DNA from: Flagellimonas oceanensis
GTDB taxonomy: Bacteria; Bacteroidota; Bacteroidia; Flavobacteriales; Flavobacteriaceae
NCBI RefSeq assembly: GCF_003992595.1
Contig: NZ_RZNA01000024.1
Location: forward strand, 137,199 to 201,198
Reading direction: 5' to 3'
DNA: 64,000 bases
Below, piece by piece: positions 1 to 8,805 of this stretch. The position numbers and the translations under genes are program-made. The number at the start of each line of letters is the position of its first letter. The first letter of the stretch is position 1. The notes under the pieces were generated by a model, which saw only the letters and a list, made by a program, of their open reading frames with translations, ran no database searches and had not been told where the DNA came from.

Positions 1-32
1 AGTCGCTTTTTTGTTTTATGTACATTTGGAAT

Positions 33-506
33 ATGAATCATACGAAAAGCTACACCCTTACCGAAGCCACCAAAAAGATGGAGCGTTACTGTGCCTATCA
101 AGAGCGTTGCCACAAAGAGGTAGTGGAAAAACTGAAGCGTATGAACATGATTCCGGAAGCCATAGACCAAATCCTGGGGCACCTCATCCAAGAAAACTAC
201 CTCAACGAGGAGCGCTTTGCCAAAGCATTCGCCCGTGGTAAATTCAATATGAAAAAATGGGGGGCGAACAGAATCATCAGGGAGTTGAAATTCCGTGATA
301 TTTCTGCTTACAACATCAAAAGCGCATTGGCCGAAATACAAAATGAGGACTATTTAACAACTTTTGATGAGCTTGCCAAAAAACGGGTGACCCAAATAAA
401 GGAGACGAACCCTTTCAAGAAAAAAAAGAAACTAGCTGATTATTTGTTGTACAGGGGCTGGGAAAGCCACTTGGTGTACGAAAAAGCAAATGAGCTTATC
501 AAATAA
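33..506 (+). CDS. recX: RecX family regulatory protein
   Basis: A protein of about 157 residues that matches the RecX family, whose members bind RecA filaments and limit recombinase activity in the cytoplasm. The family look is seen in the tandem three-helix repeats, with the conserved stretch LIQENYLNEERFAKAFARGK in the first third and a basic run KKKKKL near the end. An ATG at 18 is also in frame, but I prefer the ATG at 33 because MNHTKSYT resembles flavobacterial RecX starts. It ends 3 bases before the convergent cupin gene. No recA is in the window, which is normal for Bacteroidota. Family call is strong; the start is uncertain. Confidence 0.9.
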   Translation: MNHTKSYTLTEATKKMERYCAYQERCHKEVVEKLKRMNMIPEAIDQILGHLIQENYLNEERFAKAFARGKFNMKKWGANRIIRELKFRDISAYNIKSALAEIQNEDYLTTFDELAKKRVTQIKETNPFKKKKKLADYLLYRGWESHLVYEKANELIK

Positions 507-509
507 GCA

Positions 510-1379
510 TCAATCCTGCAGTAATAGTTTCTGCGTACGTTCCACAGCCTTTTCATTTTTCCAATCAATCCATTCTTGCCCTTTCAATCTACGCATGAGG
601 TTATCAAAATGTCGCATCACAAAAATGTTGTAAACTGCTTTCCCAAGATTTTTAGGTTTACGGGCAATCGCCCTTAAGCTCATGGAAAAACCAGGTGTAA
701 TGTACTTCATATGGTGCCAATATCCTTCGGGGATATATAGTACATTCCCATGTTCCAAATTCGTTATATGCCCTTTGGCATGTTGGAGCGCGGGCCATTT
801 ATCCAAATCAGGGTCTGCAAAATCGATATCTTCACGCGTAATCAGTGAATGCGGAATCTTGTACAGAAATTTGGTCTCATCTTGCGAGAAAAGAATACAT
901 TGTTTTTTTCCTTCAAAATGAAAATGGAAAATATTGGCCAAATCAATGTCGTAGTGCATAAAGGTGTGCGAATCCTGTCCGCCAAAAAAGAGCATGGGAA
1001 GCCCCTTCATTAAGCGTAGACCAAAATCCGGGTATGAAAAATCCTTTTGCAGCTCGGGAACTTCCTTTAAAATGTTCCAAAGGAAAATCCGGTATTTGGT
1101 AGGACCGCTTTTTAAGAGCTCGACATAGTCGGCCATCTTCATTTTGGCATGAGGTTCATTGAAGCCTTCATCATGCTTTACCGGTCGATCATCGTAAAGT
1201 GGCACTTCCTTGTCCCCTGCAATTTCTTTCATGTAATCCAGGTCCCATTTGGAATAGGCTGGCCAATCCTCAATAAAGCGCTCAATGACTACGGGCTTTT
1301 GGGGCTTGAAATATTTATGGATAAACTCCTGTTTGGTCAGGGCTTTCTCCCGAGGTATCTGTTCAAGATTCAGTTTCAA
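510..1379 (-). CDS. Cupin-like (JmjC/Cupin_8) Fe(II)/2-oxoglutarate oxygenase-type protein
   Basis: A 289-residue cytoplasmic protein with a JmjC/Cupin_8 fold signature. The metal triad is visible as H142-Y-D144 and a distal histidine at 222/223 in the strand after IPEGY, and the region between has the expected beta-rich pattern. Family members are iron and 2-oxoglutarate dependent hydroxylases of proteins or small molecules; the substrate cannot be read from the sequence. It lies 98 bases downstream of a TonB receptor on the same strand and is convergent with recX, so co-transcription with the receptor is possible. No signal peptide is seen. Confidence 0.82.
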   Translation of the reverse strand: MKLNLEQIPREKALTKQEFIHKYFKPQKPVVIERFIEDWPAYSKWDLDYMKEIAGDKEVPLYDDRPVKHDEGFNEPHAKMKMADYVELLKSGPTKYRIFLWNILKEVPELQKDFSYPDFGLRLMKGLPMLFFGGQDSHTFMHYDIDLANIFHFHFEGKKQCILFSQDETKFLYKIPHSLITREDIDFADPDLDKWPALQHAKGHITNLEHGNVLYIPEGYWHHMKYITPGFSMSLRAIARKPKNLGKAVYNIFVMRHFDNLMRRLKGQEWIDWKNEKAVERTQKLLLQD

Positions 1380-1477
1380 AATTTCAAGGAATTTGAAACA
1401 GCTAAATTAATAAAACGTTTTGAAAACTACTATTTGGGCACCAATTTGCCTTTCCCAGTGGCTGCTCCGTTTTCATT

Positions 1478-3310
1478 CTATTTAAAACTATATCGCAAAC
1501 CAAATAATACATTACTCGGCGGCATAGGTATAAAGCCAGACTCTATGTAATCTGCATCGAAAATATTATTTGCAGTAATGGTAAACTCAGCCTTTTTTAC
1601 TTTAATGACCAATGATGCATCCCAAACATTATATGTTTGTCCCGTAGTACGTTCTGCATACTTATAAATAATATTCTGACGTACATTTTTAAACAATTGG
1701 GTACTTAAGCGCGTAGTATATTGATGCTTCAATGTATTTAAAGAGTAACGGGACAATTCTTCGTTTTGGTCCAAAATATTGTCATCCAAAAACGCATAGC
1801 CCACACTTAAGGTTTGCGTAAAGTCTTTGAACTTAAAATTATAAGCAGCATCCAACTCCAAACCTTTGGTATTTACTTCTGTAATGTTTGTAGCCGTAAA
1901 TACATCTTCAGAAACATCGTTTCTAATAAAATCGATTAGATTGTCCGCATCCCTATTAAAAACAGCAACGCTGGCATTAAATTCAGGAGTAGTATACTTT
2001 AAGCCCAATTCCTGCGCAAAAGCTTCTTCTGGTTCCAAATCTGTGTTACCACTGGTAACTGGGTCGTTATAGTACAAATCCGTATAAGTCGGTATGCGGT
2101 AGGTATAGCCAATATTACCATATACTTTAAAAGTATTGGTAAGGTTATACCCAATATCCAATCCAGGGAATGCTCTCAACTTAAAGTCTGAAAAGTAAGT
2201 CAGCGCCACACCTGGGGTAATATCCAATTTGTTGTCCGCTATACTAAAACGATGTTCCAAAAACACGTTGGACATGAAACGGTTTCGGCTACCTAGGTTA
2301 TTACTTCTTAAATAGATTTGAGAAAGCTCTACCCCAAATCCTGTAATTCCCAATTTAGAGGCATAAGAGGCGTTGGTCTCTACCCCAATTTTATTGGAAA
2401 TATGCATGTTTCTGTAAAAACTTGGTTCATTTCGCCTCAAGAGAAACAAGTCTTGATTACGTTTCCAATAGATTCTTGGCTGTATTCTAAGCTTGTTGTT
2501 CTTAAAGGTGGTGGACAACGCCAACAGGCTGTTTTGGGTTTCTTCATACTCATGAAATGTAGGATTGGTGGTATAAAAATTCTCCGCTCCAAAATTGCGC
2601 TCCAAGAATGTAGCCGTCATTTGTATAGGCTGTGCATTTTTATTGAAAACACTCTTTAAATAGTAATTTCCATTATCATAATCTGAGTTATTTCTATATC
2701 CTTCAGATGTCATCCTTCCCACATGTATGATATGCGTTGAGTTTTCCGTATCGACACCGGCAGTTGCACTACCATTTAATTGTCCAAAAGAACCAGCTTC
2801 CACGTTTAGGGAAACCGAATTATCCAAATTCTTCTTGGTAATGATATTAATAGCACCAGCAAATGCATTCTGTCCAAAAACCCGTGCTGCCGGACCTTTT
2901 ATAATTTCTATTCTTTCTATAACCTCCAATGGCAAGGCTGCGTTCATGGTGTGGTGTCCCGTTTGCGCATCGTCCATTTTAACGCCATCTATCAATAATA
3001 AGGTTTGGTCAAAACCACCACCCCTTATATACAAATCTGCTTGACTACCACCGGTACCGCGTCTTCTTATATCCACACCTACAACTTGTTGAAGTAAATC
3101 TGTCACATTCACAGCGGCACTATTTTTAATATCATTGGAAGTGATGATATTGATGGTCCGTGAATTTTCCTTGAAAGGAAGATTAATTCGGTTTGCCGTC
3201 ACCACAACTTCGCTTAACGAATCTACCATTATAGCAGCATCGTCCTGTTGCGCTTTTACCTGAAAAGCACCGATCAGTACTATCGCAGTAAATAAAATTG
3301 ATTTTTTCAT
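1478..3310 (-). CDS. TonB-dependent outer membrane receptor (BtuB-sized)
   Basis: A 610-residue TonB-dependent receptor. It has an N-terminal signal peptide ending near AQQ, a TonB-box-like SEVVVTANR at about residues 33-41, a plug domain with IRGGGFDQTLLLIDGVK, then a beta barrel ending in phenylalanine-lysine (LRYSFK). It lacks the carboxypeptidase-regulatory-like domain seen in the larger receptors of this window. Its length is like BtuB or siderophore receptors, but the ligand is unknown. It is divergent from a MocR-type regulator across only 95 bases, which suggests that the regulator controls it. No cobalamin riboswitch fits in the gap. Confidence 0.9.
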   Translation of the reverse strand: MKKSILFTAIVLIGAFQVKAQQDDAAIMVDSLSEVVVTANRINLPFKENSRTINIITSNDIKNSAAVNVTDLLQQVVGVDIRRRGTGGSQADLYIRGGGFDQTLLLIDGVKMDDAQTGHHTMNAALPLEVIERIEIIKGPAARVFGQNAFAGAINIITKKNLDNSVSLNVEAGSFGQLNGSATAGVDTENSTHIIHVGRMTSEGYRNNSDYDNGNYYLKSVFNKNAQPIQMTATFLERNFGAENFYTTNPTFHEYEETQNSLLALSTTFKNNKLRIQPRIYWKRNQDLFLLRRNEPSFYRNMHISNKIGVETNASYASKLGITGFGVELSQIYLRSNNLGSRNRFMSNVFLEHRFSIADNKLDITPGVALTYFSDFKLRAFPGLDIGYNLTNTFKVYGNIGYTYRIPTYTDLYYNDPVTSGNTDLEPEEAFAQELGLKYTTPEFNASVAVFNRDADNLIDFIRNDVSEDVFTATNITEVNTKGLELDAAYNFKFKDFTQTLSVGYAFLDDNILDQNEELSRYSLNTLKHQYTTRLSTQLFKNVRQNIIYKYAERTTGQTYNVWDASLVIKVKKAEFTITANNIFDADYIESGFIPMPPSNVLFGLRYSFK

Positions 3311-3361
3311 TATGTAGGCTTGTTAGGTAAATTTTTAAGTCAATTCATTTTATGTTGCAAA

Positions 3362-3422
3362 AGTCCTAACTTTCCGGACGATTAAACTAGTCCAGTTTTA
3401 AAACAATGAATAGTCCGGTTTT
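3362..3422. promoter_or_regulatory. Candidate operator: repeated AGTCC boxes between receptor and MocR regulator
   Basis: AGTCC occurs in direct orientation at 3362-3366, 3389-3393 and 3412-3416. The last two are part of longer near-identical copies (TAGTCCAGTTTT at 3388-3399 and TAGTCCGGTTTT at 3411-3422, 23 bases apart). An inverted copy, CCGGACG, lies at 3374-3380. MocR-type regulators are known to bind mixed direct and inverted repeats beside their own genes. The final copy lies inside the first codons of the regulator, which would fit autorepression. A near-consensus -7 element TAACTTTC is at 3367-3374. The binding role is inferred. Confidence 0.5.
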
Positions 3423-4902
3423 TGATCTATTGGTTCAAATAGTGTCCATAGACAAATCTATTGTTCAGCCTGCATATGTACAGGTGGCACAACAAATCAT
3501 GAACGCCATACAACGTGGTTATTTGGAAAAAGGCAGCAAATTACCGGGAACCCGGGTTTTAGGTAAACTATTGAACGTTCATCGGAATACAGCTGTGGCC
3601 ATCTATGATGAACTGGCCTCCCAAGGTTGGGTAAACATCATACCCAATAAAGGAACCTTTGTGGTAGTTCCAGAAGATTCCAAAGTAAAAATCAAAGCAA
3701 ACACACAGCATATCAACCAAGTTTACGAACATCCCAAGATTCCAGGATTCACTTTCCAACAATCCTTTAATCTAGCATCAACCAAAAAGGAGACCACGGC
3801 CAAATATTCCATAAGTGATGGCAAACCCGATTTACGATTACATCCCGTGCACCAATTTTCCAGATGGTACAGTGCTGCAATGAAACGAAAGCCGTTAATC
3901 AACAAATGGAATAGATCCAGTGCCTTGATTCCTTCGGTTTTTAGCACCCAACTCTGTAACTATTTAAATGCCACTAGGGGATTTCATATCAAACCAACCC
4001 ATTTATTGAATACCCGCAGTACGGAAATGAGCCTGTATATTGTTTCGCAGGTATTGATAAATCCAGGCGATTTGGTGCTGGTTGGACAACTAAGCAATTA
4101 TGTGGCCAACATGATATTTCAACAATCGGGGGCAAAAATTAAAACAGTACCTGTAGATGATGAGGGATTGGATATTGGTTATATAAAGAGGCATTTTAAA
4201 CATGGGCACATTCGTTGTATTTATGTTTGCTCTAACAGGGACTATCCTACAACCACAACATTGAGCACAAAAAGAAGACTGCAATTATTGGAATTGGCCA
4301 AAACGCATGGTGTTGCCATAATCGAGGACGATTTTGACCATGATTTTCAGTTTGAAGGGTCTTCCATGTTGCCCATGGCATGTGCAGATGCCAATGGGAA
4401 TATCATCTACTTGGGTAAACTGGGACAGTCTTTATTCCCAAGTTTTCATACTGGGTTTGTTGTGGCACCAGAACAGGTAATTTCCGAAGCCAATAATTAC
4501 TTGCAATTATTGGATACACAAGGAGACCTGATACAGGAACAAATGCTTTCTGAACTTATATCCGAAGGTGAAATATACCGGCTCAAGAAAAAAAATATCG
4601 TAACCTACAAACAACGTAGGGATGCTTTATGCACTTTTTTAAAAGAACATTTTGACGACATACTTGATTGGCAAATACCTTCTGGAGGGCTGGCCATGTG
4701 GTTGCGATTTAAAAAGCCCATATCTTTAGTAAAACTGGCCGAAGAAGCTGAAAAACTGGATTTATTTTTACCAAAAACCATTCTCTATCAAGATAGAAAC
4801 ACCTGTGCCATACGTTTTGGTTACGGGAACTTAAACGAGGAAGAACTTAAAATCGTGATTGAAAAGTTAAAACAAGCATACCTGCAGTTGGCAGCTGCTT
4901 AA
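3406..4902 (+). CDS. MocR/GabR-type transcriptional regulator with degenerate aminotransferase domain
   Basis: A 498-residue fusion of a GntR-type winged helix (about residues 20-90, including GTRVLGKLLNVHRNTAVAIYDE) and a fold-type I aminotransferase domain (about 120-490). In typical MocR proteins the motif YLGTFSKTLFP carries the lysine that binds pyridoxal phosphate. Here it reads YLGKLGQSLFP, so the lysine position is Q341. The nearby phosphate-contact arginine region reads SFHTGF rather than S-R-GY, while the cofactor-contact Asp in EDDFD (308) and the terminal IRFGYG are kept. It probably senses a ligand without forming a Schiff base. It is divergent from the TonB receptor gene at 1478-3310. 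Confidence 0.88.
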   Translation: MNSPVFDLLVQIVSIDKSIVQPAYVQVAQQIMNAIQRGYLEKGSKLPGTRVLGKLLNVHRNTAVAIYDELASQGWVNIIPNKGTFVVVPEDSKVKIKANTQHINQVYEHPKIPGFTFQQSFNLASTKKETTAKYSISDGKPDLRLHPVHQFSRWYSAAMKRKPLINKWNRSSALIPSVFSTQLCNYLNATRGFHIKPTHLLNTRSTEMSLYIVSQVLINPGDLVLVGQLSNYVANMIFQQSGAKIKTVPVDDEGLDIGYIKRHFKHGHIRCIYVCSNRDYPTTTTLSTKRRLQLLELAKTHGVAIIEDDFDHDFQFEGSSMLPMACADANGNIIYLGKLGQSLFPSFHTGFVVAPEQVISEANNYLQLLDTQGDLIQEQMLSELISEGEIYRLKKKNIVTYKQRRDALCTFLKEHFDDILDWQIPSGGLAMWLRFKKPISLVKLAEEAEKLDLFLPKTILYQDRNTCAIRFGYGNLNEEELKIVIEKLKQAYLQLAAA

Positions 4903-4963
4903 CCATTCAAATTTATCTATATTGCACAGATGACAATTAACGATCAAAACGCTGAATACCATC

Positions 4964-6439
4964 GTGCTTAAAAAATTATGTTCCTTAAGGTATGAAGATC
5001 TGGACTGGAAAATGGTCCTTTTTGTTTTGGTCGTGGTGTCCGTTTTTATCCGTTTCCCTTTCTTTTTTAGGGATTATGTGGATCGAGATGAAAGCACTTT
5101 CATCCTTATGGGACAATCCTGGGTCGATGGATATTTGCCCTATACCCAACTTTGGGACCTTAAACCGCCGATTACCTTTCTGTATTTTGCCGTAATCATT
5201 AAAATTTTTGGGAAAAGCTTTTTTGCCATTCGCTTTTTTGGCGCTGTAATGGTGGGCTTGACAAGTTTGTTTACGTATGGCATTACTAAAAAAATAACCA
5301 GTAAAAAAATTGCATTCTGGGTCGCCATCTTTTGTGTGTTCTTCCAAAGCTTGTTTGGGAGTTTACAAGGAGTAATGTCGGAACACATTTGTACACTTTT
5401 TTTTGTCGCAGGTATTTATATTGTGATTTATAAAAGGAAATGGCAATGGTTTTTATTGGCCGGACTATTGTTTGGGCTTTCCATTATGTCCAAATTGAAT
5501 ATGGCATATCCCGTATTGACTTTGGGCATCTACTTTTTGTCGGAGGGTTTTGCCAAGGACAAGTTATCCAAGAGCATTCGGAATTTATTCTTTATGGGAA
5601 TCGGTGTCGCCCTTACCGTTATCCTGACCGCATTGCCCTATTATCTTCAAGATAACCTTTATGTTTGGTGGGAATCCATTTTTGAGGCACCCTTGGCCTA
5701 TGCTGGAAGCAAGTATCACTCTCCAGTAAAAACATTGCCCTTTGTTTTTATTGTTCTTGGGCTTTTGATTGTTGGTTTTGTGTACAAAATCATCGATTTT
5801 AAATCGAGGGAATCACAGTTATTGACCGTTGTCATCATTGGCATTTTGCTTTCTTTTATGCAAACCGGAAAGGTCAATGGCCATTATTTGATTCAACTGT
5901 ATCCCTTTATTTTGATTCCGATAGGAGCTGCCTTTGGCAAGCTTCCGAAGCTGAAGAAATCATACAAACCTCTTATCATAGCGTTGCTTTTGCTTATTCC
6001 GATGGAATCTTATTTGGAATACATGAACATTGTTTCCAACAAAATAAAAAAAGGGTCTTTATATAATGGTGAAGGGATTGATGTCCCCAGATACATCCTA
6101 GAACATAATCTGGAAACCAATAATATTTTCTTTACCGAATACCATATTGGATATTGGGTTTTGGGCGAAACACCACCCACAAAAGCGGCTACCCACCCTA
6201 GTAACATTACCCGTGATGAATTGTTTTCCAATCTCGACAACCCAAGAAAAACAGGGGTTGAAGAGCTCAAATACATTATGGAGGTCATCCAACCAAAAAC
6301 CTTGATAGCTCGAAATGGTAAAAAGATTTTTGATAAAAAACTAGTGGAGTACAACACTTATATAGATGCTTATATAGAAACACATTATAAGTTAGAGGCT
6401 ACTGTGGGAAGAGGACTAATCTACCAACGACTAGAATGA
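4964..6439 (+). CDS. GT39/PMT-like polytopic membrane glycosyltransferase
   Basis: A protein of 491 residues with roughly ten hydrophobic segments, of the dolichyl-phosphate-mannose mannosyltransferase/ArnT-like class (PMT_2). Support is the first periplasmic loop with DRDES (residues 40-44) followed by WDLKPP, typical of lipid-phosphate-sugar dependent transferases, and the soluble C-terminal tail. It probably moves a sugar from a polyprenyl phosphate donor onto an envelope acceptor; donor and acceptor are unknown. The start is a GTG at 4964 because the first in-frame ATG (5012) would cut into the first membrane helix. It lies 61 bases after the MocR gene. Confidence 0.8.
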   Translation: MLKKLCSLRYEDLDWKMVLFVLVVVSVFIRFPFFFRDYVDRDESTFILMGQSWVDGYLPYTQLWDLKPPITFLYFAVIIKIFGKSFFAIRFFGAVMVGLTSLFTYGITKKITSKKIAFWVAIFCVFFQSLFGSLQGVMSEHICTLFFVAGIYIVIYKRKWQWFLLAGLLFGLSIMSKLNMAYPVLTLGIYFLSEGFAKDKLSKSIRNLFFMGIGVALTVILTALPYYLQDNLYVWWESIFEAPLAYAGSKYHSPVKTLPFVFIVLGLLIVGFVYKIIDFKSRESQLLTVVIIGILLSFMQTGKVNGHYLIQLYPFILIPIGAAFGKLPKLKKSYKPLIIALLLLIPMESYLEYMNIVSNKIKKGSLYNGEGIDVPRYILEHNLETNNIFFTEYHIGYWVLGETPPTKAATHPSNITRDELFSNLDNPRKTGVEELKYIMEVIQPKTLIARNGKKIFDKKLVEYNTYIDAYIETHYKLEATVGRGLIYQRLE

Positions 6440-6456
6440 TTCCCGTAACAAATATT

Positions 6457-6843
6457 TCATTGAGCGGGTTTGGTAATGAAATTGCATTGCATGCATTGGT
6501 ACTTTCTGGGCTCAAAGAACGGAAACAGTTTATAAAAAATAGTACTTCGCGAATAGTAAATCTCTGACTTGGTGGCCTTGCAATTAGGGCAAACCACTGG
6601 ATTGCCAAAATCATCGGTGGCGTAGTTTCGGACTTCATCGAAAATTTCCTTGGCTCTTTCCTTATCGCTTGAATACACTTGTAACTTAACACCACCTAAA
6701 GCTGCACTAATCAAAGGATCTGAATTAATAGTAGCTTCATCCCTTAAAAATACAGGAATCCCCTCTGCTTCCAATTTGCCTTTAATGACCACGGCATCCG
6801 CCGGAAACTCAAAGCTTCCCAAAGTGTAAAATTCAGTTTTCAT
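6457..6843 (-). CDS. DUF2007 protein with C-terminal zinc ribbon
   Basis: A small cytoplasmic protein of about 128 residues. The N-terminal half matches the DUF2007 'putative signal transducing protein' pattern (FPADAVVIKGKLEAEGIPVF and a ferredoxin-like alternation). The C-terminal half has two CxxC pairs, CPNCKAT and CMQCNF, that form a zinc ribbon. I chose the ATG at 6843 (MKTEFYTLGSF) over an upstream in-frame codon since the domain starts there. It is convergent with the glycosyltransferase gene. Function is unknown; DUF2007 is PII-like in fold by family knowledge. Confidence 0.75.
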   Translation of the reverse strand: MKTEFYTLGSFEFPADAVVIKGKLEAEGIPVFLRDEATINSDPLISAALGGVKLQVYSSDKERAKEIFDEVRNYATDDFGNPVVCPNCKATKSEIYYSRSTIFYKLFPFFEPRKYQCMQCNFITKPAQ

Positions 6844-7008
6844 CCTTCCAAATATTTTAAAGGGCTTGCAAACAAAATCGCAATCGCTCAATTTCTTGTT
6901 AAAATAGTCGATATTTTCAAATAGCTACCGAAAAATTTCTCCACCCCACAAATCTAGCACTTACGCAGATTAAACAGTATCTTAGTGCATCTTAAACCTA
7001 ACTCGAAA

Positions 7009-8805
7009 ATGAAATTTACCCTTTCCATTTTAGCACTATTCACTGGGCTATTGATGACTGCCCAGACCAACACCTATTCTATTTCTTTTGACAATGCCTT
7101 GCATCATGAGGCAATTATTGAAGCTACTTTTCCCGATTTAACTTCGGACACTGTGGAGTTTCGGATGAGCAGAACCTCTCCTGGACGTTATGCCCTTCAC
7201 GAATTCGCCAAAAACGTTTATGGCTTTCAAGCTACCGACAGCAAAGGAAATCCCCTGACCGTGACCCGTCCAAATCCATATGCTTGGGAAGTTAGCGGAC
7301 ATGATGGCACCATCAAGATCAAATATATTTTATTTGCCAATCGAGGTGGGGGTACTTATTCCCAAGTGGATGAGACTCATGCCCACTTGAACATTCCTGC
7401 AACTTTTATGTTCTCCCCTGAATTGAGTGAGCGCGAAATCGAAGTGACTTTTGATGTTCGTGAAGACTTGGACTGGAAAGTGGCCACACAACTTCCTTTG
7501 GTCTCCGGCACTACCTATTCGGCACCTGACCTCCAATATTTTATGGACAGTCCTACGGAAATCAGCAATTACATGCTACGTTCTTTTGAAGTGGATGACA
7601 AGACCATCAATCTTGCACTGCATCACAACGGAACTGAGGAAGAAGCTGATGAGTATTTTGAAAAAGTAAAAAAAGTAGTTCTGGCAGAAAAGGACGTCTA
7701 TGGTGAGTTGCCAGATTACGATTATGGAAGTTACACGTTTCTTGCCTGTTATATCCCCAATGCCTCGGGCGATGGCATGGAACACCGAAATTCCACCATA
7801 TTGACGAGTACCCGAAGCTTGGCTGATGGCGGTATGGAACGTAATATCGGGACCGTATCCCATGAGTTTTTCCATTCTTGGAACGTAGAGCGTATTCGCC
7901 CAAAAACTTTGGAGCCTTTTGATTTTGAGGAAGCCAATATGAGCGGGGCGCTTTGGTTTGCCGAAGGGTTCACTAGTTATTACACGGGCCTGATTTTATG
8001 TAGAGCTGGTCTTTCCAGCCCCCAATCATATGTTGAGGGATTGGCCGGGACCTTCAATTATGTTTGGAACTCCCCTGCACGACAATTCTTCAATCCGATT
8101 GAAATGAGCTTCCAAGCGCCCTTTGTGGATGCAGCCACCTCGGTAGACCCTGTCAACCGTGAGAACATGTTCATTTCCTATTATTCCTACGGAAGTGTAT
8201 TGGGCTTGGCTTTAGATCTTTCCCTTCGTGAAAAAGATTTAAACCTGGATGGTTTCATGAAATATGTCTGGAAAAAATATGGCAAAGCTGAAAACCCATA
8301 TACGATTGAAAATCTGCATGGTGCTTTGAGCGAGTACGCAGGAAAATCTTTTGGGGACCAATTTTTCAACAGTTATATCTACAAAAGTGATATGCCCGAT
8401 TACAAAACACTTATGGAGTCAGTAGGTGTAATTCTGGAACAAGCTGAAACTGCTCCGTATTTTGGATCATATGTCTTAATGAGCAGGGATAACTCAGGTT
8501 ATAGGATTCTCAGAAACACAAAAATGAACAGTCCTGCCTACGTTGCTGGACTGGACAGTGGGGATGTGATTTTGAGTATCAACGACAAGCCTTTGGCTGA
8601 GGACCAATCTTTTGATGATTACTTGATGCAATTCAATTTAGGAGAAGCATTGCAAGTAAAGTATACAAGATACGGGGAGGAAAAAACCACAGAACTGGTT
8701 CTGACACCCAGTCCCGACTATTCCTTTAGCTTAATGGAGGACAAAGATTTAAAACCGTCCAAAGAAATGCTTGAACATCGAAAAGAGTGGCTTAAGGTGG
8801 AGTAA
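7009..8805 (+). CDS. M61 family glycyl aminopeptidase-like metalloprotease with PDZ domain
   Basis: A 598-residue secreted or periplasmic peptidase. A signal peptide (MKFTLSILALFTGLLMTAQ) leads into the M61 N-terminal beta domain, then the zinc motif HEFFH at residues 285-289 with the downstream glutamate in WFAEGFTSYY, and finally a PDZ domain at about residues 490-580 (SPAYVAGLDSGDVILSIND). M61 enzymes are aminopeptidases related to glycyl aminopeptidase. The ATG at 7009 is chosen because it starts the signal peptide. The stop codon is immediately followed by the ATG of the GNAT gene, so the two are translationally coupled. Confidence 0.92.
   Translation: MKFTLSILALFTGLLMTAQTNTYSISFDNALHHEAIIEATFPDLTSDTVEFRMSRTSPGRYALHEFAKNVYGFQATDSKGNPLTVTRPNPYAWEVSGHDGTIKIKYILFANRGGGTYSQVDETHAHLNIPATFMFSPELSEREIEVTFDVREDLDWKVATQLPLVSGTTYSAPDLQYFMDSPTEISNYMLRSFEVDDKTINLALHHNGTEEEADEYFEKVKKVVLAEKDVYGELPDYDYGSYTFLACYIPNASGDGMEHRNSTILTSTRSLADGGMERNIGTVSHEFFHSWNVERIRPKTLEPFDFEEANMSGALWFAEGFTSYYTGLILCRAGLSSPQSYVEGLAGTFNYVWNSPARQFFNPIEMSFQAPFVDAATSVDPVNRENMFISYYSYGSVLGLALDLSLREKDLNLDGFMKYVWKKYGKAENPYTIENLHGALSEYAGKSFGDQFFNSYIYKSDMPDYKTLMESVGVILEQAETAPYFGSYVLMSRDNSGYRILRNTKMNSPAYVAGLDSGDVILSINDKPLAEDQSFDDYLMQFNLGEALQVKYTRYGEEKTTELVLTPSPDYSFSLMEDKDLKPSKEMLEHRKEWLKVE

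Follow-up and report, generated by a model that had tools for sequence, protein, structure and literature searches.

A MocR-type regulator with glutamine in place of the PLP-anchoring lysine, beside a TonB-dependent receptor in Flagellimonas oceanensis: a diverged member of a BioL-like clade with a possible role in biotin or dethiobiotin sensing

The regulator gene and its neighborhood

The window, i.e., the whole stretch of 64,000 nucleotides of the Flagellimonas oceanensis genome analyzed here, carries at 3406..4902 on the + strand a gene for a MocR-type regulator of 498 aa, assigned below to the lysine-less branch of a BioL-like clade. Both of its domains score above the Pfam cut-offs (GntR at residues 24-86, 6.8e-11; Aminotran_1_2 at residues 179-487, 1.9e-7), in the order typical of MocR proteins, i.e., an N-terminal GntR winged helix-turn-helix (wHTH) and a C-terminal fold-type-I aminotransferase domain. 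The top NCBIfam model is PdxR, with a score of 253.7 bits, below its cut-off of 320. The best solved-structure match, 7pq9, covers residues 15-488 and is labeled merely as a PLP-dependent aminotransferase family protein in the structure search; we take it to be a MocR/PdxR protein, and its lysine and arginine at columns 341 and 348 are presumably its PLP contacts. In the alignment to 7pq9, the segment YLGKLGQSLFP (residues 335-345) places Gln341 (CAG, 4426..4428, + strand) at the PLP-lysine column, and His348 (CAT, 4447..4449, + strand) falls at the column of the phosphate-contact arginine, showing that two residues of the MocR class, the PLP-anchoring lysine and the phosphate arginine, are both absent from the regulator. 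An AlphaFold2 model built from 34 close sequences has a mean pLDDT of 58, with residues 337-349 below 50, so that the pocket is not readable from it.

The gene divergent from the regulator, at 1478..3310 on the − strand, encodes a TonB-dependent receptor of 610 aa with Plug and beta-barrel domains, a candidate biotin/dethiobiotin receptor. Its top NCBIfam model is TonB-B12, whose score of 170.7 bits is far below the cut-off of 599.7. Riboswitch control of the receptor was set aside, as no Rfam match reached the gathering scores in window positions 1-8000. Beyond the receptor lie a cupin-8 gene (510-1379, − strand) and a gene that is presumably RecX-like (18-506, + strand), both of which recur there in many relatives.

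Conservation of the altered cofactor site

A regulator match was found in 51 of the 149 genomes of the family sample; 18 genomes (the bacterium's own included) encode a protein 61-100% identical to the regulator, and the next best match is 41% identical. When each species was represented by a single genome, a further scan gave 305 relatives, the best 80 of which were kept as named loci, and the 18 family genomes together with these best 80 of 305 make up 98 orthologous loci, with at least two repeats among them. The receptor adjoins the regulator divergently in 18/18 and 80/80 of these, respectively, so that the divergent TonB receptor noticed in the preliminary description of this DNA was confirmed in all 98 loci; in one of them (L136) the receptor is split into two pieces.

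In all 18 close family genomes, column 341 is Gln and column 348 is either His or Gln. Among the best 80 of 305 relatives, column 341 holds Gln in 78, Lys in one (L142) and Arg in one (L153), and column 348 holds His or Gln in 80/80. The pooled counts are thus 96/98 for Gln341 and 98/98 for His or Gln at 348 (His 47, Gln 51), whereas MocR rows outside the clade have both Lys and Arg in 36/36 in the same alignment. The replacement of the MocR PLP lysine by Gln341, proposed from the sequence of this one locus, is confirmed by the alignment to 7pq9 and by these loci, as is the further change at the phosphate-contact arginine. It had been suggested that homologues with an intact lysine could expose the substitution as a sequencing error; lysine is kept in distant clade members, and in the homologue alignment Gln is nearly fixed among the close orthologues, ruling out a sequencing error or the oddity of one strain.

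The two exceptions, Lys in L142 (Lutibacter citreus) and Arg in L153 (Polaribacter), fall inside the Gln clade and both have Gln at column 348, showing that a lysine at column 341 alone is not evidence of PLP use. Other parts of the protein are retained despite the loss of the lysine and the arginine, namely Arg50, Arg470 (97/98), Ser205/Glu207 (E207 in 96/98) and the DNA site described below; D309, an acidic residue of the EDD motif, is kept in 98/98. Ser205/Glu207 is common to the Lys, Arg and Gln types, and it is absent from L020 and from 36 other MocRs.

The shared promoter region

A conserved operator-like region lies between the divergent genes at 3358..3421, without assigned strand, with the consensus CAAAAgTcgTAACTTTCCGGACgAtTaAa.TAGTCCAgTTTTAAAAcaATgaATAGTCCGGTT, in which capitals mark letters present in at least 90% of 96 distinct orthologous (Gln-type) promoters. 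It contains three boxes, i.e., box 1, inverted and read as CCGGAC on the + strand (3374..3379, − strand), box 2, AGTCCAG (3389..3395, + strand), and box 3, TAGTCCGGTT (3411..3420, + strand), which overlaps regulator codons 2-5 (NSPV). In the 96-promoter profile, the mean information per column reaches 1.94 bits in box 3 and 1.66 bits over the 52 columns preceding it; outside the repeats it falls to 0.68 upstream of that stretch and to 0.92 in the codons after box 3. The strict three-box pattern is present in 87/96 promoters (86 with one spacing and one shifted by one base), and the other nine differ by base changes. The repeats reported earlier over the regulator start are thus confirmed, and they are better conserved than the sequence around them; however, the AGTCC at 3362-3366 that was counted among them is no conserved box, the consensus there being AgTcg. 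That box 3 overlaps the beginning of the regulator gene is in line with the invariant SPV near the N terminus of the protein. As a side observation, the DNA site may itself fix this start, box 3 lying within the opening codons (3406-3420), and a similar AGTCC box is found at the start codon in several other MocRs of the class.

The layout extends beyond the Gln-type promoters. Among ten non-Gln clade members, boxes at −39 or −38, −21 and 0 are present in nine, with letter variants, and L049 is without box 1; the layout is the same whether the promoter faces a bio operon, bioB, the receptor or neither, and the box spacing is equal to within one base across Lys-, Arg- and Gln-type promoters. In this comparison with the relatives' own promoters, the window promoter shares the operator layout of the bio-operon-linked relatives. 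Region 3358-3421 is best read as a putative three-box operator kept from bio-operon promoters. A genome-wide search of the 18 Gln-type genomes with a 25-base pattern and at most three mismatches recovered the regulator's own site in 17 and missed it in G122. Further matches consisted of two three-mismatch places (G132, G032) and an overlapping reading of the own site in G061, and a reversed control pattern gave one match, so that no second clear operator site per genome was seen in those 17/18 genomes at the sensitivity used.

Relatives of the regulator and comparison with BioL

In a class-wide search, 28/395 genomes have a clade member, to which a 41% relative, L019, is added. In a first tree, for which 17 of the 80 named loci were taken and L251 and L254 were dropped as repeats of L022 and L024, the clade of 45 rows stands on one branch with an SH-aLRT of 100, and the grouping of L226 with the remaining Arg rows is weak (52). 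In a second tree, of 28 clade rows and four others and with none of the 80 named loci, support is 100/100 for the clade, 100/100 for the Gln group and 94/86 for the Arg group. The trait columns 341 and 348 were left in the alignment for both trees. Two changes at the lysine suffice on the 28-genome tree; two losses are the simplest account, and one loss with one regain also fits.

All five members with both Lys and Arg (G142, G169, G223, G440 and G188) are divergent from a gene of about 207 aa that is bioE-like, followed by bioF, bioD, bioB and bioA, and a true bioA is present in 5/5 of these genomes. In all five Lys-type loci (L048, 3848-4483, − strand; L222, L223, L224 and L225), the ~207-aa gene heads the bioF-D-B-A cluster. 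The L048 protein gave no Pfam or NCBIfam match and no solved structure below E 0.4; by its place, its motifs and the published description it is a putative BioE, recently reported as a diiron oxygenase. Of the four Arg-type members, which have Arg for Lys, G402 is divergent from bioB alone, G227 and G321 from a receptor 33-34% identical to that of the window, and G248 from neither, its bioB being elsewhere; none of these four genomes has bioA. A further member, G022, faces a divergent receptor gene (31%); its Lys is retained, its Arg is replaced by Gln, and S205 and E207 are missing. No bioB, bioD or true bioA was found in this genome, which is 88% complete. Taken by pocket type, bioA is present in 5/5 Lys+Arg genomes vs. 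1/23 with a changed pocket (Fisher p 6e-5, a test that ignores relatedness), and an independent-pairs test, with two pairs, has no power.

The Lys-type relatives resemble BioL of Elizabethkingia, a MocR protein reported to repress bioEFD and bioBA and said to sense AON (8-amino-7-oxononanoate, KAPA) (PMC12915131). According to that report, residues R50 and K340 are needed for repression, R50A and K340A raise the bio transcripts about 4-fold, compared with about 40- and 13-fold for the deletion, and both reproduce the growth defect seen when bioL is deleted; the Elizabethkingia biotin ligase has no DNA-binding domain (PMC12915131). The Lys-type relatives match this type by operon content and residue places (Arg50 with K338, K342 and K338 in the three whose starts are comparable; R51 and K336 in G142).

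The window regulator is, by its tree placement and alignment, a diverged lysine-less member of this BioL-like MocR clade, grouped with the bio-operon-linked MocRs of the sampled genomes in both trees (SH-aLRT 100; 100/100). It shares with BioL as described from Elizabethkingia and Chryseobacterium (PMC12915131) the MocR architecture, Arg50, a ligase lacking the DNA-binding domain and the clade of the Lys-type bio-operon relatives. Unlike BioL, it has Gln341 in place of the PLP lysine K340 and His/Gln for the phosphate Arg, its divergent gene is the TonB receptor, and the BioL targets bioB, bioD and a true bioA are missing from its genome, which departs from repression of bioE-F-D and bioB-A. 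GabR, PdxR and EnuR have the same combination of a GntR wHTH with a fold-type-I aminotransferase domain and an operator of repeated boxes; however, those proteins use Lys-bound PLP, whereas the window branch has no such lysine. An EnuR Lys302His variant is reported to be unable to bind PLP and to act as a constitutive repressor (PMC8739950).

Outside the MocR class, control of biotin genes by a GntR-family protein is also described for BioR of alphaproteobacteria (PMC4554459). Among the open-licence papers searched, no report was recognized that describes a BioL without the lysine or a regulator of this kind in control of a TonB receptor. BioR reportedly belongs to another GntR subfamily, without the aminotransferase domain.

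Biotin genes in the window genome and near Gln-type regulators

A profile search of the window genome found no bioB, no bioD and no true bioA, the three bioA-like places reaching up to 239 of the 405 bits needed. In its biotin ligase, of 247 aa, the ligase domain begins so close to the N terminus that there is no room for a DNA-binding domain; reading of this translation ruled out BirA as the biotin regulator in this genome. The bacterium thus appears, from its gene content, to be unable to make biotin. BioY as the inner-membrane partner was ruled out as well, none of the 28 clade genomes searched having BioY; the inner-membrane step of biotin uptake would then fall to another system.

Genome-wide counts covered bioA, bioB (model TIGR00433) and bioD. 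In total, bioB occurs in 91/149 family genomes, i.e., in 5/18 Gln-type genomes vs. 86/131 others (Fisher p 0.004, which again ignores relatedness). In four of the five bioB-bearing Gln-type genomes (G115, G061, G093 and G135), bioB comes just after the receptor gene, in the same orientation; these four are without bioA and bioD, so that wherever bioB survives alone in a Gln-type genome it adjoins the receptor (4/4). In the fifth, G122, bioB is on another contig, away from the receptor, and G122 is also the only one of the 18 Gln-type genomes with bioD and with bioA over the cut-off, making it the one case of bioA among the 22 genomes with a Lys-less form (0/4 in the Arg type). Among the best 80 of 305 relatives, an intact bioB lies beside the receptor in L097, L112, L137, L139 and L150, of which L150 repeats G135, giving eight distinct loci when combined with the family genomes. 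Any bioB match in the stretch covered was found in 11/98 loci, one of them a repeat, and five loci span less than 3.2 kb on that side. Decayed copies are also present, with a bioB fragment matching residues 234-318 of 360 beside the receptor of L088 (Flagellimonas lutimaris, 4809-5063) and, in L152 (Winogradskyella flava, 1681-1976), broken bioB pieces at a distance of some 5 kb from the regulator.

The presence of bioB without bioA and bioD in G135, G115, G061 and G093 is like the A1 type of biotin salvage, in which BioB is the sole synthesis enzyme and a genome can use dethiobiotin (PMC6593275), although the main text of that survey makes no mention of TonB or MocR. Use of dethiobiotin was reported from growth tests in a Rhizobium strain without bioD (PMC9123166).

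The biotin genes of G122 form a cluster of their own (L274:4701-10329) of bioB, a ketoacyl-synthase-like gene (129.9 bits with the fabF model, below the cut-off), bioA, bioD and bioF, with no match to a bioE-like gene or a MocR within 14 kb. It appears to be a different type of flavobacterial biotin cluster, without a bioE-like gene or a MocR regulator.

The other side of the regulator was searched with biotin-protein queries from 1.5 to 9 kb downstream of the regulator start in the best 80 of 305 relatives and the window. Matches to bioA, bioD, bioF or the cluster synthase were obtained in 17/81 loci, 14 of them with E at most 1e-6, and the reversed control gave 0/81; the window itself has no biotin-gene remnant in this range. 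The remnants sit 1.6-8.5 kb from the regulator start, all on the opposite strand, and most are short or have stops. The loci that bear them belong to Flagellimonas/Muricauda/Allomuricauda and to Maribacter (e.g., L088, L094, L096, L099, L112), a pattern that fits the decay of a biotin cluster that once stood beside the regulator. Four Maribacter loci (L099, L100, L101, L103) have a nearly full-length bioD match with no stops (frame read for L101), and L112 has an intact bioB, a long bioF match running to the end of the stretch covered and a bioD match with stops. The remnants, the Maribacter bioD and L112 together indicate that a KAPA-making type of cluster stood by Gln-type regulators after the lysine was lost.

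Discussion

The explanation that best accounts for these observations, and which is considered likely, is that a PLP-independent BioL derivative senses biotin, dethiobiotin or a derivative of these and controls a biotin/dethiobiotin receptor via the three-box operator. The clade-wide loss of the lysine and the phosphate arginine supports the absence of a covalent internal aldimine. It had been proposed from the window that the regulator must bind PLP non-covalently or sense something else; the loss of the internal aldimine is now supported, and non-covalent binding of PLP keeps a small probability. The related proposal that the ligand of the receptor, or its product, is sensed has gained both support and a candidate, biotin or dethiobiotin, from the adjoining bioB, the biotin-gene remnants, the BioL-type placement and the missing biotin genes. 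The receptor itself probably takes up biotin and/or dethiobiotin, or imports biotin or a precursor of it.

The amine of KAPA can react with Lys-bound PLP, which biotin and dethiobiotin cannot do. By analogy with other MocRs, Lys-bound PLP in BioL would read the amine of AON. A BioL-type ancestor would have controlled a BioE-type operon, and the regulator would have kept the operator layout, while the divergent target in the window lineage would have become the TonB receptor, with bioB downstream of it in some relatives. Once the regulator had stopped controlling the BioE-type operon, the Lys and the phosphate Arg could have been lost, and the aminotransferase fold would sense, with no Schiff base, either biotin, dethiobiotin or a related compound, for example biotinyl-AMP. 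Bound to the three-box operator at 3358-3421, the regulator would repress the receptor gene and its own gene under sufficient biotin, the direction of control being taken by analogy from BioL.

In a more specific form, a PLP-dependent biotin regulator lost its cofactor chemistry, the lysine becoming Gln in one branch and Arg in a second; the inactive aminotransferase pocket would then have turned to sensing biotin or dethiobiotin directly and non-covalently, in control of a dedicated receptor in the outer membrane. This form is put forward tentatively, and the KAPA-type cluster that stood near some Gln-type regulators makes it slightly less probable. Loss of the lysine because KAPA had vanished is weakened as a reason by G122, which is of the Gln type yet has bioB, the synthase-like gene, bioA, bioD and bioF elsewhere, and by the Maribacter loci; loss of control over the BioE-type operon fits the cases seen. 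The tidy history also has counter-cases, as G022 keeps the Lys though its bio genes are missing, and L142 and L153 have Lys and Arg within the Gln clade. The roughly 4-fold derepression by K340A, set beside the deletion values, means that a lysine-less BioL must have changed its working. The two lysine mutants go in opposite directions, K340A derepressing BioL and Lys302His making EnuR repress constitutively, so that what the natural change does is not readable from them.

The conserved D309 and Arg470, together with PdxR as the best NCBIfam match, albeit below its cut-off, could be taken to mean that the Gln-type protein binds PLP non-covalently and responds to PLP status or to an adduct of PLP with an amine; the receptor would then import a B6- or amine-linked compound. 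However, the lysine and the phosphate arginine are both gone, the genomic links are to biotin genes and the protein is placed with bio-operon-linked MocRs, which makes this reading unlikely. A constitutive repressor, or a simple DNA-binding protein at its own promoter, that has lost its effector function and uses the aminotransferase domain for dimerization would agree with the EnuR variant (PMC8739950) and with the single clear operator per genome; this is quite unlikely, given that the aminotransferase domain is strongly conserved over many genera (R470, E207) and that an auxotroph would gain little from a receptor whose gene is always repressed.

The TonB-B12 model, although far below its cut-off, and the scarcity of bioB matches (11/98 loci, with the repeat and the short loci noted above) could instead point to a receptor for cobalamin or another micronutrient, with the nearby biotin genes there by chance gene order. 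This is judged very unlikely, in view of the position of bioB by the receptor in four of the five bioB-bearing Gln-type genomes and of its remnant in L088, the remnants on the other side of the regulator in 17/81 loci, the relatives that face a bio operon, and the lack of an Rfam match in window 1-8000.

If the explanation by a PLP-independent BioL derivative is true, it would show how a cofactor-dependent sensor can be rebuilt without its cofactor, with natural Lys, Arg and Gln variants to compare, and the natural Gln-type protein makes the need of MocR proteins for PLP directly testable. It would also name a candidate outer-membrane biotin/dethiobiotin receptor, together with the protein that regulates it, in marine flavobacteria that are widespread and of which many seem to rely on biotin supplied by other organisms.
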